NCBI RefSeq assembly: GCF_014133895.1
Contig: NC_050732.1
Coordinates: 682,001-746,000 of the forward strand
Source of the DNA: Torulaspora globosa
Lineage: Eukaryota > Ascomycota > Saccharomycetes > Saccharomycetales > Saccharomycetaceae
Reading direction: 5' to 3'
Length of the DNA stretch: 64,000 nt
Under the pieces are notes generated by a model that searched no databases, was not told where the DNA came from, and saw nothing but the letters and a program-made list of their open reading frames with translations. Shown here piece after piece: positions 45,877-54,587 of this stretch (positions are counted from its first letter, which is position 1; each line of letters begins with the position of its first letter). The translations under genes were made by a program, and so were the position numbers.

Positions 45877-48800
45877 CTAGGCAGTGGTGTTCTCATCGTA
45901 GATGATGTCTTCTAGGATGTCACTAACTTTATTCTCTAGCGTCTCCTGTGATTTTTTGTCGTCTTCGCTGATATGAGTGTCAAGATCGAGCTTGTTCTTG
46001 GCAAGCTGGAAGATCTTCTCTTCGATAGAGTCCTTGGTGATTAGGGTTGTGATTGTAACTTCTTTCGTCTGTCCGACACGGTGAGAGCGGTCGGCGGCCT
46101 GTCTGTCATCGTGCGGGTTAAAACTCTGGTCGAAAATGATGACGTTGTTGGCGGCGACCAGGTTGATACCGAAACCACCGGCTTTCGTTGAGAGAATGAA
46201 AACAGGGATGGTGTCGTCTTCGTAAAACTTGTCTATTAATGATTGTCTGTCGTTGACCTGAGTAGAGCCGTCCAGTCTCAGGAACTTGTAATTCAAGCTC
46301 GACAGCACTAGCTCCAGAATGTCCAGCATTTGAGTGAAAAGGGAGAAAATCAGCACTTTCTCCTTTTTGTCAACGATGATGTGCTTGAGGATTTCTGTCA
46401 ATTTGTCTATCTTGCCTGATTGTAGCCATTCCTTGTTGCGCAGCTGGAACTTTTCAAGAGTGTTAGGGAAGCTACAGCACAACCTGTGTAGTTCGAAGTC
46501 ATTCATATAACTCATGTCCTCCATAATGTACTGTCGATTACCATTTTCTGCATAATCTGGTTCGTCTAGAATGGCATCACTCATCTTCGCGATGATCTTA
46601 TCGTTGTACAGCGTCCGGAAGAGTAGCGGATGCATAGAGGCCTTTCTCAGAGCCATTATTAGATTCTTCGACGATGATGATTGTATCTTTGATCTTTCCT
46701 TTGGATCGCTTGGCAACGTTCCATCTTGGATCATCCTTTTGTGTTCCATAACAAGTTTGATCTCCTCGTTGTATATTTTCCGTTGAGCTGCATTCATCTC
46801 GCAATGCTCTATAACTCTATGCTTTGCTGGTAAGTGTTTGAGTACTTGATCCTTTCGTCTTCTCAAGATGAAGGGTCTCATCATCATCTTAGCTCTGTTG
46901 ATCGCCTCTTGAGCCAATAGCGGATTGAAATTTTTGTTGTCATCGCTTGTTCTGGCTCGTTGCTTGAAGATCGAAGCGAGATATTCTTTTTTCGATTCGA
47001 ATAGTGACGGCATAATGAACTCCAATAGAGACATCAACTCCTTTAAATTATTTTGTAGCGGGGTACCAGTCAAAAGAAGACGGAAATTTCCTTGGATTCT
47101 CATCAATTTCGTGAATCTCTCAGATAGCGAGTTTTTAAGCATATGCCCTTCATCATAAACGACAACGTTAAAACGGCAGTTTCTCAAAAACGAAATGTCA
47201 TATTTGTTGCCGGCTGCCAAATTGTAAGTGGTCACTATCACATCATATTGGCCGGCAGTTCTTTCCAGAATCTCCCTCAAACCAGCTCTTTCTTGTTGCG
47301 AGCCGTAATAAGGCTCGATCTTTAGGCTAGGACAGAACTTCTGGAACTCTCTGAGCCAGTTTTCCAATGTGGATGATGGCACTACGACAAGGTGTGGGCC
47401 TGGCTCATTGATTTGCTTCAAGTAGGCTAGAAATGATATCACTTGACATGTCTTACCCAGTCCCATATCATCAGCTAATATACAGGACATGTGATTATGA
47501 TAAAGCAGGTTTAACCAATTTATACCTGTCTGTTGGTAGTCTTTCAGCTGAACCTCGGGACCTAGTAGTTTGGGTCTTCCCTTGAAGAACTTGACCAGTC
47601 GTTTTTGAGGCCTTCCCCTCCGTCCCGGAATCGTGGTCCTCCTTGTTTGTCCATAGTCTTCATCTTCGCTGTTCTCAAATTCAGCATCTTCCTCTACTTC
47701 TTCTTCCTCTTCCTCCGCTTCATTATCACTTGAGTTTTTAGTTCTAGTTTTGCTAACGTTATTGGAACTGATACTCCCCGGTGCAGGCGTTGGTGTGGCA
47801 CTAATCTCGGACTCGTCAAATTCCTCAACAACTGCAGCGTCATCATCATCCGAATCGATATTGGTGAAGTCCAGCTCACCGCCATTCTGCGAATGTTCCA
47901 AATCAATACCCCATCTTCTCATTTGACCGGATATCAATTTACCATAGGACGAACATCTTTTGATCAAGGAATCGATGGCATTGTAACCTCTGATGCTTTG
48001 ATTGATCTTTTCCAATACTTTTTCGCTTTCCTTCTTCTGGTTTCCGCCCTTCCTAACTTTTTTCTGCATTTTTTTGGATTCATCTTCGGTGGATAGATCT
48101 AGCTGAGTGAATGCATACAAACTCGAGAATGGTCTCCTCGATATGATAGTATTGGCCTTCGAAACCGAAGTCTCTCCTAGATCGGCAAGGTCACTTGCTT
48201 CTGCCGTATTCAAGAATTGAAGAACCTGATCATCAATATTGATTTCGGGCGTTCTTTCCTCGTACTCTTCTCCGCTCATCTCTTCTTCTCCGCTCATCTC
48301 TTCCTCCGCCGTCTCGTCGTCGTCCGACATCCCACGTTTCTTGAGCTTTTCCTTCAGCAGATTTTCCTTGGCTTTCTCTAGATGAGTAGCTTTCCTGTCT
48401 CCATCGAGATTATCAGCTCTTACAAGCCTTCTTCTCTTGTTCCCCGCACCACCGAGTTTCGCTAAGGACTCTTCATCAACAACTAAGGACTCGGTCATAA
48501 CCGGGCGTGCTCTTTGATTCATCACATTGGAATAACGGTCAAAAATCGAAGTCCTTTGCTTCTCAAGAACAATCTTCGACGAGGGATCGCCTTGCTTTAT
48601 GGAATTTAGTCGATTCGTTGAACTCGATCTACTGACAGGTGGAGCTGGCGCCTTCTTGGGCCCTTTAGAGTTAACAGACCAGTTCTGCCTTTGATTCTTG
48701 ATTCTCGTTAGCCTTTCCCGTGCCAAATTCACATCAAAAGAGTTCGATTTGAATACTGCCTGAACCAAAGTAGGCGAAAAGTCCGGGAATTCCTCCGCTA

Positions 48801-48990
48801 ACCGTACTAGCTGTACATCTAGTTGCTTCTCCGTGCCATTCCCAGTCATTGCCGGACCGTTATGAGCAAGATTTCCAGGAGTAAAACTGAACTTATCCCG
48901 CAGAAGCGATGCTGCAGAATCACCTTGTGCTTGTCTTAACGGCGAGGAAGATTCGGGCACTTGGACCTCGTCACTAGGGGAATCTGCCAT
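45877..48990 (-). CDS. FUN30: Snf2-family chromatin remodeller Fun30
   Basis: ATP-dependent remodeller (SMARCAD1 type) that supports heterochromatin silencing and long-range DNA-end resection. Start is the ATG at 48988-48990 (MADSPSDEVQVPESSSPL); a TTG two codons upstream is not used. A CUE-like ubiquitin-binding motif is at about 58-98 (VRLAEEFPDFSPTLVQAVFKS), acidic stretches at about 225-245 and 380-430, and a basic patch GRRGRPQKRLVKFF near 450. The Snf2 motor has Walker A LADDMGLGKTCQ near 507, DEGH in motif II, and C-terminal motifs DGSTQVNDRQSLIDKF, STKAGGFGINL and ADRSHRVGQTKEV. 1037 residues, complete. Confidence 0.96.
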   Translation of the reverse strand: MADSPSDEVQVPESSSPLRQAQGDSAASLLRDKFSFTPGNLAHNGPAMTGNGTEKQLDVQLVRLAEEFPDFSPTLVQAVFKSNSFDVNLARERLTRIKNQRQNWSVNSKGPKKAPAPPVSRSSSTNRLNSIKQGDPSSKIVLEKQRTSIFDRYSNVMNQRARPVMTESLVVDEESLAKLGGAGNKRRRLVRADNLDGDRKATHLEKAKENLLKEKLKKRGMSDDDETAEEEMSGEEEMSGEEYEERTPEINIDDQVLQFLNTAEASDLADLGETSVSKANTIISRRPFSSLYAFTQLDLSTEDESKKMQKKVRKGGNQKKESEKVLEKINQSIRGYNAIDSLIKRCSSYGKLISGQMRRWGIDLEHSQNGGELDFTNIDSDDDDAAVVEEFDESEISATPTPAPGSISSNNVSKTRTKNSSDNEAEEEEEEVEEDAEFENSEDEDYGQTRRTTIPGRRGRPQKRLVKFFKGRPKLLGPEVQLKDYQQTGINWLNLLYHNHMSCILADDMGLGKTCQVISFLAYLKQINEPGPHLVVVPSSTLENWLREFQKFCPSLKIEPYYGSQQERAGLREILERTAGQYDVIVTTYNLAAGNKYDISFLRNCRFNVVVYDEGHMLKNSLSERFTKLMRIQGNFRLLLTGTPLQNNLKELMSLLEFIMPSLFESKKEYLASIFKQRARTSDDNKNFNPLLAQEAINRAKMMMRPFILRRRKDQVLKHLPAKHRVIEHCEMNAAQRKIYNEEIKLVMEHKRMIQDGTLPSDPKERSKIQSSSSKNLIMALRKASMHPLLFRTLYNDKIIAKMSDAILDEPDYAENGNRQYIMEDMSYMNDFELHRLCCSFPNTLEKFQLRNKEWLQSGKIDKLTEILKHIIVDKKEKVLIFSLFTQMLDILELVLSSLNYKFLRLDGSTQVNDRQSLIDKFYEDDTIPVFILSTKAGGFGINLVAANNVIIFDQSFNPHDDRQAADRSHRVGQTKEVTITTLITKDSIEEKIFQLAKNKLDLDTHISEDDKKSQETLENKVSDILEDIIYDENTTA

Positions 48991-49168
48991 GGTCAATCTA
49001 CAGTCGATAATCCATAGACCTACTGCTGATCCTTGGTGATTCTTGTAATGTTAAAGTGTAGTTATGAAAATTTTTTAGATGAGCTAGCTCTGCGAACGCG
49101 TTAGATTTTAATATACATATGGCAACACGAAAGGACATGAAGTAAGTTGGGACCCTGAAGCTCTATCC

Positions 49169-50234
49169 ATGAGTAGTGAAGTGTACAGTCTTGGCTCTAA
49201 TAGCCACTGTCAACTTAGGCCTATCTCACAGTGAAGACGTTATCGTTCCTCAGTTGTCATTCGTGGAGACCCAAGGGCTCGATGTGCAAAGGATTGCGTG
49301 TGGTGGGAATCACACAGTAATGCTGCTAAGTGATGGTTCTGCCTATGGTTGCGGTGACAATTCAAACGGACAGATATGCGATTCCCCGGAAAAAGGTGAC
49401 TGCGCCTCTTGGACCCGATTGGATCAACGTTTCCAGGACGTAGCATGCGGCTGGGACTTTACGGTGGGAATCAACAAAGATAATGAGGTGATAAGCCGAG
49501 GAGCTGGCCATAAAGGTGAGTTGGGAATAGAAGGATTGAGTCAAGCGGGTCATTTTACCAAGGTCATGAAGGTAAATAAGGGATCGAGAGTGTTTTCGTC
49601 TCTCCAAAACTGTGTAGTCGTGGAACCCTTGGGCGATACAGGTGGTTCCAGGGTATATGGATGGGGCAGCAACACGAAATGCCAATTAAAGCAGCCCAAG
49701 AGTCGTGTTGTGGCTGCTCCCGTGGTGATATTCGAGAGCAACAACACGATGGTCAAATACGCAGCCTTGGGTAAGGATTTTACAGTGCTTGTGGACGTCT
49801 CAGGTCGTATAGTACACGCTTGCGGTAACTTGCCTTCAGGATTCGATATTTATCAGTGGGGAAACAAATCTGGCTTACAAGTGCATTGTATGTGGACTTC
49901 GCTCCATATTTTGACGTCTCGGGGTGGTATCTACTCGTACGGGAACGGGCGTCATGGCCAACTCTTTAACCGTGAGCAATGGGCTCACTCTGACGACCTC
50001 AAGCAGGCAGCTGTGGGCAGCGAACATGGCGTGCTTCTATCGAACTTAAATACTGTTGCATGTTGGGGCTGGGGTGAACACGGAAACTGTGGCAGACTCA
50101 CTGACGATAGAACTATTAATAATGACTATTCAAACGTAGTGAGCCCCCTCAACCGTCTACCAATACCAAACGGCGTCATCATTACAAAAGTATTTGCTGG
50201 TTGTGCAACTACTTGGCTGGTCGCAAAGCGTTAG
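49169..50234 (+). CDS. ATS1: Ats1/Kti13 RCC1-like protein, apparently requiring a +1 frameshift
   Basis: RCC1-type beta-propeller that partners Kti11/Dph3 in diphthamide synthesis and in Elongator-dependent tRNA wobble modification. The only plausible start is the ATG at 49169: MSSEVYSLGSNSHCQL, clearly the family N-terminus, but this frame stops at 49232. The rest of the protein (GLSHSEDVIVPQLSF through AGCATTWLVAKR) is in the +1 frame, open from 49176 to the stop at 50234, and has no ATG before codon 49-50 of that frame. S. cerevisiae Ats1 reads QLGLGHDED across this point, so the break sits exactly between QL and GL. The bases there are CTTAGGC (49214-49220). With a +1 shift the protein has 354 residues. 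RCC1 repeats (CGGNHTVML, GWGSNTKCQL, GWGEHGNCG) are intact. The alternatives are a sequencing insertion or a young pseudogene. Confidence 0.9.
49214..49220 (+). promoter_or_regulatory. Candidate programmed +1 ribosomal frameshift site CTTAGGC in ATS1
   Basis: In the zero frame the codons are CTT (Leu) and AGG (Arg); slipping by one base gives CTT then GGC (Gly). This is the exact heptamer of Ty1 and ABP140/TRM140, where peptidyl-tRNA-Leu slips from CUU to UUA while the rare AGG codon waits for its tRNA. The zero-frame stop follows five codons later, at 49232. Confidence 0.75.
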
Positions 50235-51480
50235 AAACAGCTCCTGCCGTAAGAATCGCAAGTCTCCTCCATGAATCAGGTGTAATCTTCATGGTAAAAA
50301 AATCAAGAGTTGTTTCACAGTTTCAATGCTTGGCGCTTTCTTTTCAGCCTGGGCGCTAGCCCTGTCATACCCAGTGAGAAGTATTACGCAATGAGACGGC
50401 CTATGCTTTTGCGACTATTGCAATGACTGGCAATGGGACTACGCTGGTGGGACATCCAAGACGATTAATCATTGTGGAGATGTATTCCATTAAGTCTCCG
50501 TGTTGGATGACGTAGATCACTTCTCTTAATTGATTTCTTGGCATAATGGAAATGCTTGGCCAAGCGATTAGATTATATTAAATCATAGTGGCCTCTGAAA
50601 ACCCAGTCCATTCAACGAGGCCTCTTCAGGCTTGTATGGGATATTAGAAGGATATACTAGAGATGCAAAATGAGAAATGACTACACTCACTTTTTTCCGA
50701 GAGATTGTAAAGGCGTTCCCTGTTTTTGCTGAGGAGCAGGTAGATCTATATCCCCTACTGGCATTGCGACAGGATGCCTGAGCTACTTGTCTTAGCTTCA
50801 CGACGAAATGGCTCAAGATTGGTGAATATGTTCAACACTGTCCTCAATCGTGACCTGAGAAAAGAATACGCTTGGATTCAGCAACCCGCTGGATATCGGG
50901 AGACTAAACCGAGAGATGAATGATATACTATAGGCTTCATTTCCTTCTAAAGACACCTAAGTAAAGCCTACTCTATTGCAAAGCTGCGTACTTGGCGGCA
51001 CATATGCCAATCCATGCCATTTCTTCTGTAGGGGACTGAAAATGATATCGGGCTAGCTGCCTACACGCTATATGATCAGTAAAACTCTGGCTTTCCTGGT
51101 GTGACTTTAAATGATAGCTAAGTGAGCACTCTTCGAGAAGAAACAGGACTCTCTAGCGGTGAGCCAAAGTCTAGAGCTTATGGCAAAATAAGCAAGTACT
51201 ACAGCTACGCTGTAATGACATTGATCTCGAGCTGATGAAAAAAACGTGGTAATAATGCTCTTTGCAACATGACTCCAGGAAATATCCTAAGATAAACTCC
51301 TGTGTCTCTGCTCGCCTGATGGTAACCTTGCATGCAATCGCAATCAGAGGCTTTGTCAAGCGCTAGGACTCTTGCTGAATGCAATTCCCACCAGACAGAA
51401 GGAAGTTGATTTCTCTCGACAAGCTTTCTTTCAAAAGCGCTACTGTTTATCGGTAGCCGAGGATCTTACTGATTTCAAGA

Positions 51481-52175: not shown

Positions 52176-54587
52176 ATGAACAATCCTTCTATATTGAGTT
52201 ATCCAAGCCTTGGTCCACAACACCAACCGAACATTATACCCGGTATGCAGGCGGGTACTCCGACAGGGATTCATCAGCAGTTACAGGGGAACCCACTACT
52301 AGGCGGCACAAGCGGAGGCGGAGGTACAATGCCACCTCCTGGAATGATGAAACCTAATATCGGTGGTGCAAATGACGGTGCTGCTTTGCAGTTGTTGAAC
52401 CATCTTGGCACCGGTAGTGGTAAGGTAGCTGGGACGAACAGTGGCACTGTGACGGGATCTGTCAATGGAAACGAGAAAAATCCGCTTTATCATCTACATT
52501 TGGAAGAACCTGGGCTTTTGAACAATCCTATATGGAAATTACAGTTGCAGCTGGCAGCGGTTTCCGCACAATCGATGGGACAACCGAACGTTTACGCCAG
52601 ACAGAATGCGATGAAAAAATATTTAGTCAATCAGCAGCAGCAACAGCAATCGTTGGATCACCAGCGACAGCCGGGTCTGCTTCAGCAGGTCTCTGGATCG
52701 CAGACACAATTGCAAACCACAGAGCAACAGCCGCAGAATCCGCAGATGGCCGTCGCGTCTGTTTCTTTAGTGGATAAGACTAAACAGCTTTTGATGGAAA
52801 TGGCTGCAGATATAAAAGACACTGCAGCAAGCAGCAATAACGGCATTAGCAACCCGCCAGGTTCTGCGAATACTTCGGCTACGGCCAACACAAGCGGCTC
52901 TGCCTCGTCTCCTTCTACCCCCAAGACTGAGTTACATAACTTAAGGGACCAGAATACAGGAACGCCTGTATTACTTCTACAGCATAAGAAACTATCACAA
53001 TTCAATATAGATGAAGACGATGAGCTAGAACATCGAATGGCGGGACCCAAGAATACCAAATTTGATGACCAGCTGTGGCATGCGATCGATTTTTCCAACT
53101 TACAAATTTTCAACATTAGTGCCAATCTATTCAAGTACACTTTTTTGACAAGGTTATACTTGAACGGTAATAGTTTGACTTCTATCCCGCCAGCAATAAA
53201 GTCATTGGTTAATCTACGTGTGTTGGATTTGTCTCACAACAAGCTGACCAGTTTGCCGAAAGAAATGGGACACTGTTACCAACTGAAGTATCTTTATGTC
53301 TTTGACAACATGATTACAACTTTGCCTTGGGAGTTTGGTAGTCTCTTCAATCTGCAATTTCTGGGTTGCGAAGGCAATCCTCTGGACAAACAATTATTAA
53401 AAATCCTAACAGAGAAATCGGTGACAGGCTTAATATTTTATCTTCGTGATAATAGACCGGAAGTACCCATGACCAAGGATCGGGACTTTATAGAGATCAA
53501 CGCTGATGGCGATCCTGTGGAGAAATACAAATCACTGCAGGAGGCCGATGAACATTTAAGTCGAGATTTGGCCAAGAGAAGTTTCACTGTGCTATCCTAC
53601 AACACACTGTGCCAACATTACGCGACTCCAAAGATGTATCGTTACACGCCATCATGGGCTCTGAGTTGGGATTATAGACGTGAAAAACTGACGGAACAAA
53701 TTTTGTCTTACATGAGTGATGTTATCTGTTTGCAAGAAGTGGAAGCTAAAACTTTTGAGGATTATTGGGCGCCTTTGATGCAGAAACACGGCTACTCAGG
53801 CTTGTTCCATGCCAAGACGAGGGCAAAAACTATGCACTCGAAGGATTCGAAAAAGGTAGACGGTTGTTGTGTTTTCTACAAGAAATCGGAGTTTAGAGTC
53901 ATTTTCAAGGACGCAGTTGATTTCAGTGGAGTTTGGATGAAACATAAGAAATTTCAACGTACTGAAGATTATTTGAATCGCGCAATGAACAAAGATAATG
54001 TTGCGATTTACCTGAAGTTGGAACACATCGAAAGTGGCGAGCACGTCTGGCTCGTCACGACGCATTTGCACTGGGATCCTCAATTTAATGATGTGAAAAC
54101 GTTCCAAGTAGGTGTCCTGATGGATCACATGGAAGACCTTCTCAGGGAACAGAGCAATGCCCAATCCAAGCAGGAAATTAAGAAGTGCTCGGTGATCCTA
54201 TGTGGTGACTTGAACTCAGAGATAGACTCAGCAGTCTATGAGCTTCTAAGCACTGGCCGTGTGCAAACACATGATGACGTTAAAGGAAGAGATTTTGGTT
54301 ACATGACGCAGAAGAATTTCGCCCATAACTTGTCTATGAAATCAAGTTATAGCCACATTGGCGAACTACCTCTAACAAATTTTACGCCTTCGTTCACCAG
54401 CGTGATTGACTATATATGGTTTTCAACTCAGTCACTCCGGGTTCGCGGACTGCTCGGCCCAATAGATTCAGATTACATATCCGAATTCATCGGGTTCCCC
54501 AACGCTAAATTTCCAAGTGATCACATTCCCATATTGGCGAGGTTCGAATTCGTAAAAGGAGGAGCCGGCTCCAGCAGAAAGATATGA
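52176..54587 (+). CDS. CCR4: Ccr4 deadenylase, catalytic subunit of Ccr4-Not
   Basis: Main cytoplasmic mRNA deadenylase. The ATG at 52176 ([17 protein letters not shown]) is chosen; four codons upstream reach only a GTG. The N-terminal third is Gly/Gln/Asn/Ser-rich, with the conserved island [19 protein letters not shown]. Leucine-rich repeats (about 300-410, e.g. [18 protein letters not shown] and [15 protein letters not shown]) bind Caf1/Pop2. The EEP nuclease domain (about 470-795) has [20 protein letters not shown], catalytic Glu in [38 protein letters not shown] and [14 protein letters not shown]. 803 residues, full length. Confidence 0.97.

Follow-up and report, generated by a model that had tools for sequence, protein, structure and literature searches.

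A probable programmed +1 frameshift at a CTTAGGC heptamer in the ATS1/KTI13 gene of a Torulaspora yeast

Results and Discussion

The sequence of the ATS1/KTI13 gene of Torulaspora globosa suggests, with a probability that we put at about 0.9, that the gene is expressed by programmed +1 ribosomal frameshifting, in which case full-length Ats1 would probably be made only when the ribosome skips one base. In the window, which is the whole stretch of 64,000 nucleotides that was analysed, ATS1 is split by a single base at CTTAGGC, as the initial annotation had claimed, and the heptamer lies exactly at the change of frame that homology defines. The odds are carried by the evidence at this junction and by the EST3 and OAZ1 genes of the same genome. 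The features of the locus are as follows.

49169–49234, plus strand: ORF1 in the 0 frame, ATG, 21 codons and TGA; the start of Ats1 through Leu16, from sequence and homology (weak for this peptide alone)
49214–49220, plus strand: CTT-AGG-C, candidate +1 frameshift heptamer in the 0 frame; A 49217 would be the skipped base and GGC 49218–49220 the first +1 codon
49218–50234, plus strand: ORF2 in the +1 frame, Ats1/Kti13 residues 17–354 (338 codons, RCC1-like repeats) and a stop codon; from homology and Pfam RCC1
49119–49145, plus strand: upstream ORF of 8 codons, ATG to TAA, read from the sequence; relevant if the mRNA starts above it
49182–49212, plus strand: weak hairpin directly 5' of the heptamer, -9.0 kcal/mol; 60 of 200 shuffled sequences were equally good
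45877–48990, minus strand: neighbouring gene for a FUN30-like SNF2 ATPase, by homology
52176–54587, plus strand: neighbouring gene for a CCR4-like deadenylase, by homology

The ATS1 locus and the proposed shift

From the ATG at 49169–49171 the 0 frame encodes MSSEVYSLGSNSHCQLRPISQ and ends at the TGA at 49232–49234, while the +1 frame is free of stop codons from 49173 to the stop that ends at 50234. The sequence thus confirms that the ATG frame closes at 49232 and that the rest of Ats1 is open in the +1 frame. If CTTA is counted as a single Leu step the two frames give one protein of 354 amino acids with no further stops or shifts. The extra base at the junction is a single A, flanked by TT and GG and outside any homopolymer. 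The first ATG of the +1 frame is at 49320 and opens an ORF of 304 codons. ATS1 shows two features that are expected of genes of the CUU-AGG-C class, namely a 0-frame CTTAGGC where homology changes frame, and an early 0-frame stop together with a long +1 ORF that lacks an upstream ATG of its own.

In the mechanism that we propose, ribosomes would initiate at 49169 and pause after 16 codons, with CUU occupied by peptidyl-tRNA-Leu and the slow AGG codon in the A site. The tRNA-Leu would then slip onto UUA, GGC would enter, and the 354 amino acid protein would be completed in the +1 frame, while ribosomes that failed to slip would read five further codons to the TGA and yield a peptide of 21 amino acids. 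The slippage itself, its efficiency and the tRNAs used at ATS1 are assigned by analogy with published work on CUU-AGG-C. According to the available text of these reports, about 40% of the ribosomes of S. cerevisiae shift frame at the heptamer (PMC12661321), the shift takes place when peptidyl-tRNA-Leu slips with AGG still to be decoded (PMC12661321, PMC12719033), and reading of CUU by the slippery tRNA-Leu(UAG), without tRNA-Leu(AAG), correlates with shifting (PMC12719033).

Four stretches were folded in the search for a stimulatory RNA structure and none of them beat its shuffled versions (z from -0.40 to 0.78); because the upstream hairpin is no better than shuffles, it is not claimed as a stimulator. 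An Rfam scan of 48900–50600 gave no match at the gathering score. The 8-codon upstream ORF ends 23 bases 5' of the ATS1 ATG, and the base at -3 of that ATG is T, which is a weak initiation context. Given these two features, initiation at ATS1 may also be regulated.

Identity of the gene and position of the frame change

The +1 part alone, taken from GGC at 49218, scores 234 bits against a PDB sequence of S. cerevisiae Ats1 (4x33_B, E 2.8e-68), and its alignment begins at chain residue 16 of 4x33_B and at residue 18 of 4d4q_A. When the 0-frame N-terminus is joined to the +1 part the score rises to about 250 bits over query residues 3–351 (E 4.2e-73, 4d4q_A), whereas joining the upstream residues of the +1 frame instead gives only about 237 bits. 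On this difference, the 0-frame peptide is likely the true N-terminus of Ats1 and the junction likely falls at QL/GL. The changeover that had been predicted, QL and then GL on CTT-AGG-C, is thus borne out by the alignments of both N-terminal versions with the PDB sequences of Ats1. The 21-residue 0-frame peptide by itself gave three matches where up to ten could be reported, all three to Ats1 but weak (E 0.08–0.2), and its best-matching stretch was the internal repeat VYGWGSNTKCQL, with the N-terminal VYAFGSNGQRQL scoring lower.

The homology to S. cerevisiae Ats1 extends over the full length of the joined protein, and Pfam places RCC1 repeats in the +1 part. The neighbouring genes agree with this identity, as FUN30-like and CCR4-like genes lie on either side, in the same order as in S. 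cerevisiae, where ATS1 is flanked by FUN30 and CCR4. Unlike the gene described here, the S. cerevisiae gene is unbroken and requires no frameshift; the PDB sequence of its product carries QLGL within one chain.

Other +1 recoded genes in the same genome

The genome (9.28 Mb in 8 contigs) was searched for further recoded genes. EST3 and OAZ1, which were picked by Pfam family (PF10341 and PF02100, respectively) and hence without selection on a shift signal, retain their known +1 sites, CTTAGTT after 97 codons in EST3 and GCGTGAC after 72 codons in OAZ1. A search with the methyltransferase family PF08242 gave 16 matches, 15 of which were examined as loci, and one of these (L038), whose sequence we take to be that of Abp140, has CTTAGGC after 203 codons; this gene was recognized among the 15 partly by its CTTAGGC, so its signal is subject to selection. 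A YFS1-like gene (L002, 789–1524, minus strand) begins ATG-CCT-AGA-TGT-CTT-A-GGC, with the shift site after 4 codons. The pattern that found it contained the heptamer, so that the signal is present by construction, and a backward control pattern also gave two matches; its support comes from a +1 body of 240 codons that has a Pfam match to T5orf172. Pfam fits the +1 body in all four genes (TPP1/Est3, ODC antizyme, methyltransferase and T5orf172). The YFS1-like locus has a G+C content of 0.56, as against 0.45 for the window. Another locus richer in G+C than the window (0.57; L049, G000:C2 near 565817) has a methyltransferase match below the cut-off.

Comparison with known systems

ABP140/TRM140 of S. 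cerevisiae and Ty1 use the same heptamer as ATS1 here, in the same +1 direction and with an early 0-frame stop, and the ABP140-like gene of this genome shares CTTAGGC with them. ATS1 differs from both in that no significant 5' stem-loop was found at its site, and it differs from S. cerevisiae ABP140 in the position of the shift, which comes after 16 codons rather than at codons 277–279 (PMC5009743). The S. cerevisiae genes YFS1/YPL034W and LLP1 are described as carrying the same heptamer very close to the start of the coding sequence, ahead of a body in the +1 frame, although they encode different proteins (PMC12719033, PMC12661321).

The closest precedent is in Ashbya gossypii, for which a 2013 paper lists eight genes as apparently translated across frameshifts, seven of them +1, with ACR287W (ATS1) among them (PMC3737163). 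This is the same gene with the same direction of shift, but in the available text the listing gives no heptamer, position or evidence. Zygosaccharomyces parabailii adds BIR1 and YJR112W-A as frameshift genes (PMC5433688). The initial annotation held that ATS1 is not on the short list of yeast +1 frameshift genes. That is so for the S. cerevisiae genes named in two 2025 papers, ABP140, EST3, OAZ1, YFS1 and LLP1 (PMC12661321, PMC12719033), but the novelty that it implied does not stand, as the Ashbya gene had been listed in 2013. ATS1 does not occur in the available text of PMC12661321, PMC12719033, PMC5433688 or PMC5009743, and the Ashbya listing was the only item found for ATS1, KTI13 or YAL020C together with frameshifting in a literature that included few subscription papers and no supplements. 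ATS1 as a +1 gene is thus not wholly new; what is new is the sequence evidence in this genome.

Chance, error and splicing as alternatives

In order to judge how easily the heptamer could arise by accident, all 177,456 one-base insertions were counted in the 28 non-overlapping window ORFs with 200 codons or more, among them the +1 part of ATS1. Only 3 of them (1.7e-5) made an exact CTT-A-GGC, and 12 (about 7e-5) fell anywhere within an in-frame CTTAGGC; an estimate from codon pairs for the exact case, over 287.5 kb, was about 2.5e-5. With 12 in 177,456 and no second lesion in 354 codons, the view that a random insertion is unlikely to have landed in this heptamer without other damage holds up.

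It is very improbable that the extra A is an assembly or sequencing error and that ATS1 is a single-frame gene as in S. cerevisiae. Such an error would explain everything with one base in a gene that is otherwise intact, but the base in question is a lone A outside a homopolymer, it completes a known heptamer exactly (the 12 in 177,456 above), and Ashbya ATS1 is likewise reported as +1 (PMC3737163). We give still less credence to a real inactivating insertion, which would leave either a recent pseudogene or only a truncated protein of 304 amino acids from the ATG at 49320. That internal ATG does sit in the +1 frame and does give a long ORF, but initiation there would leave out the first 50 residues of Ats1, which can be aligned to the start of the S. 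cerevisiae protein, and both the intact remainder of the gene and the coincidence with the heptamer argue against decay. Equally improbable is a 90 nt intron from GTAAGT at 49142 to CAG at 49231 that would connect the +1 frame to an ATG at 49137. Both splice sites are present, the joined frame is open (ATG-AAT-GAA-GAC), and CTAAT at 49197 weakly resembles a branch site. Against this intron, none of seven TACTAAC-type branch motifs tried was found in 48950–49330, and splicing would remove the N-terminal peptide, which contributes about 16 bits of homology when read in the 0 frame; nor can the one-base gap between Leu16 and Gly17 be filled by any intron.

To look for avoidance of the heptamer, its in-frame occurrences were compared with expectation in a sample of 94 records (93 loci and the window), reduced to 73 after removal of overlaps, with 287,506 bases, 155 ORFs and 60,311 codons. 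This sample is non-random, its loci having been selected because of tRNAs, methyltransferases or pattern matches. In-frame CTTAGGC was expected 1.9 times and observed twice, one of the two being ABP140, which had itself been sought, so that the count lends no support to avoidance. An ordinary gene, ATG5 (L038, 2161–3042, minus strand), next to the ABP140-like gene, likewise contains CTT-AGG-C in frame, at codon 30 of its 294 codons, so that the heptamer is not strictly excluded in this genome. As an efficient heptamer would be expected to divert ribosomes within ATG5, either this gene can withstand such shifts or the heptamer works less efficiently in this genome.

tRNA-Arg genes that read AGG

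Pattern searches found seven genes for tRNA-Arg(UCU). A pattern that permitted an intron gave seven matches, one of them like the 3' half of S. cerevisiae tRNA-Arg(CCU); among the seven, folding covered this CCU candidate only, and the patterns do not amount to a census. The candidate (L094, 59–157; 201 bases at G000:C7:784560-784760) folds as one tRNA cloverleaf with a 26-nt intron and scores 55.9 bits against the Rfam tRNA model. ARAGORN puts the intron after base 35 and reports the candidate as Trp(CCA); with the intron placed after base 37 its anticodon is CCU, and this assignment is preferred because eukaryotic tRNA introns usually lie there. The S. cerevisiae tRNA-Arg(CCU) gene, by contrast, is not known to have an intron. 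One candidate intron-bearing tRNA-Arg(CCU) against seven tRNA-Arg(UCU) genes points to an imbalance, with the CCU identity hanging on where the intron is placed; in S. cerevisiae the corresponding numbers are 1 and 11 (PMC4627075).

An earlier reading, that tRNA-Arg(CCU) was absent, was dropped once the intron-permitting pattern had given its candidate. The S. cerevisiae CCU gene used as a query had returned no candidate, a blank that shows nothing. Of four earlier patterns for a CCU gene, two had no matches, and a third matched 13 loci, at which ARAGORN detected no tRNA. A fourth CCU pattern gave 38 matches, none with an intact pair of CTCCTAA and GGTTCGA when inspected by eye; as a built-in control, this pattern recovered all seven UCU genes at one mismatch. 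A Ty1-type programmed +1 shift in ATS1, as initially put forward, is supported by the position of the heptamer, by homology and by the other recoded genes, and with reservations by the tRNA genes.

A possible feedback on Kti13

The product of ATS1 helps to make a tRNA mark on which the reading of AGG partly depends. Kti13 (Ats1) and Kti11 regulate both the tRNA modification by Elongator and the diphthamide of EF2, and kti13 deletions are reported to retain about 15% of Elongator activity (PMC10468694). Kti13 together with Kti11 supports Elongator, whose mcm5U34 mark helps the abundant tRNA-Arg(UCU) to read AGG. A feedback loop can readily be derived from this: if Kti13 ran low, AGG would be read more slowly, ribosomes would slip more often on the ATS1 heptamer, which contains this codon, and more Kti13 would be made. 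We consider it unlikely that the shift site acts as such a feedback sensor.

The published reporter data that bear on this loop, as far as the available text of the papers goes, are mixed. In elp3 mutants tRNA-Arg(CCU) becomes essential, so that mcm5 on tRNA-Arg(UCU) is needed for good reading of AGG, and luciferase reporters shifted more at the A- and G-ending codons of tRNA-Arg(UCU) when the mark was missing (PMC4627075). A Ty1 reporter, however, showed no rise in elp3, with ratios of 0.80 for CUU-AGA-C and 0.74 for AAA-AGG-C, in a table of six rows that does not include CUU-AGG-C. Loss of diphthamide is linked to -1, not +1, errors (PMC6193676).

Conclusions

Automatic annotation may well begin Ats1 of this yeast at 49320 and so drop its first 50 residues. 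Because of the role of Ats1 in making the mark that aids AGG reading, the question of feedback is directly testable with standard yeast reporters, and if the loop were true, tRNA modification would be governed by a recoding switch that regulates itself, with a logic like that of antizyme and polyamines. The locus described here adds evidence at the level of sequence to a one-line Ashbya listing and suggests that in these yeasts the recoding of ATS1 either goes far back or has arisen repeatedly, whereas S. cerevisiae Ats1 is encoded in a single frame.
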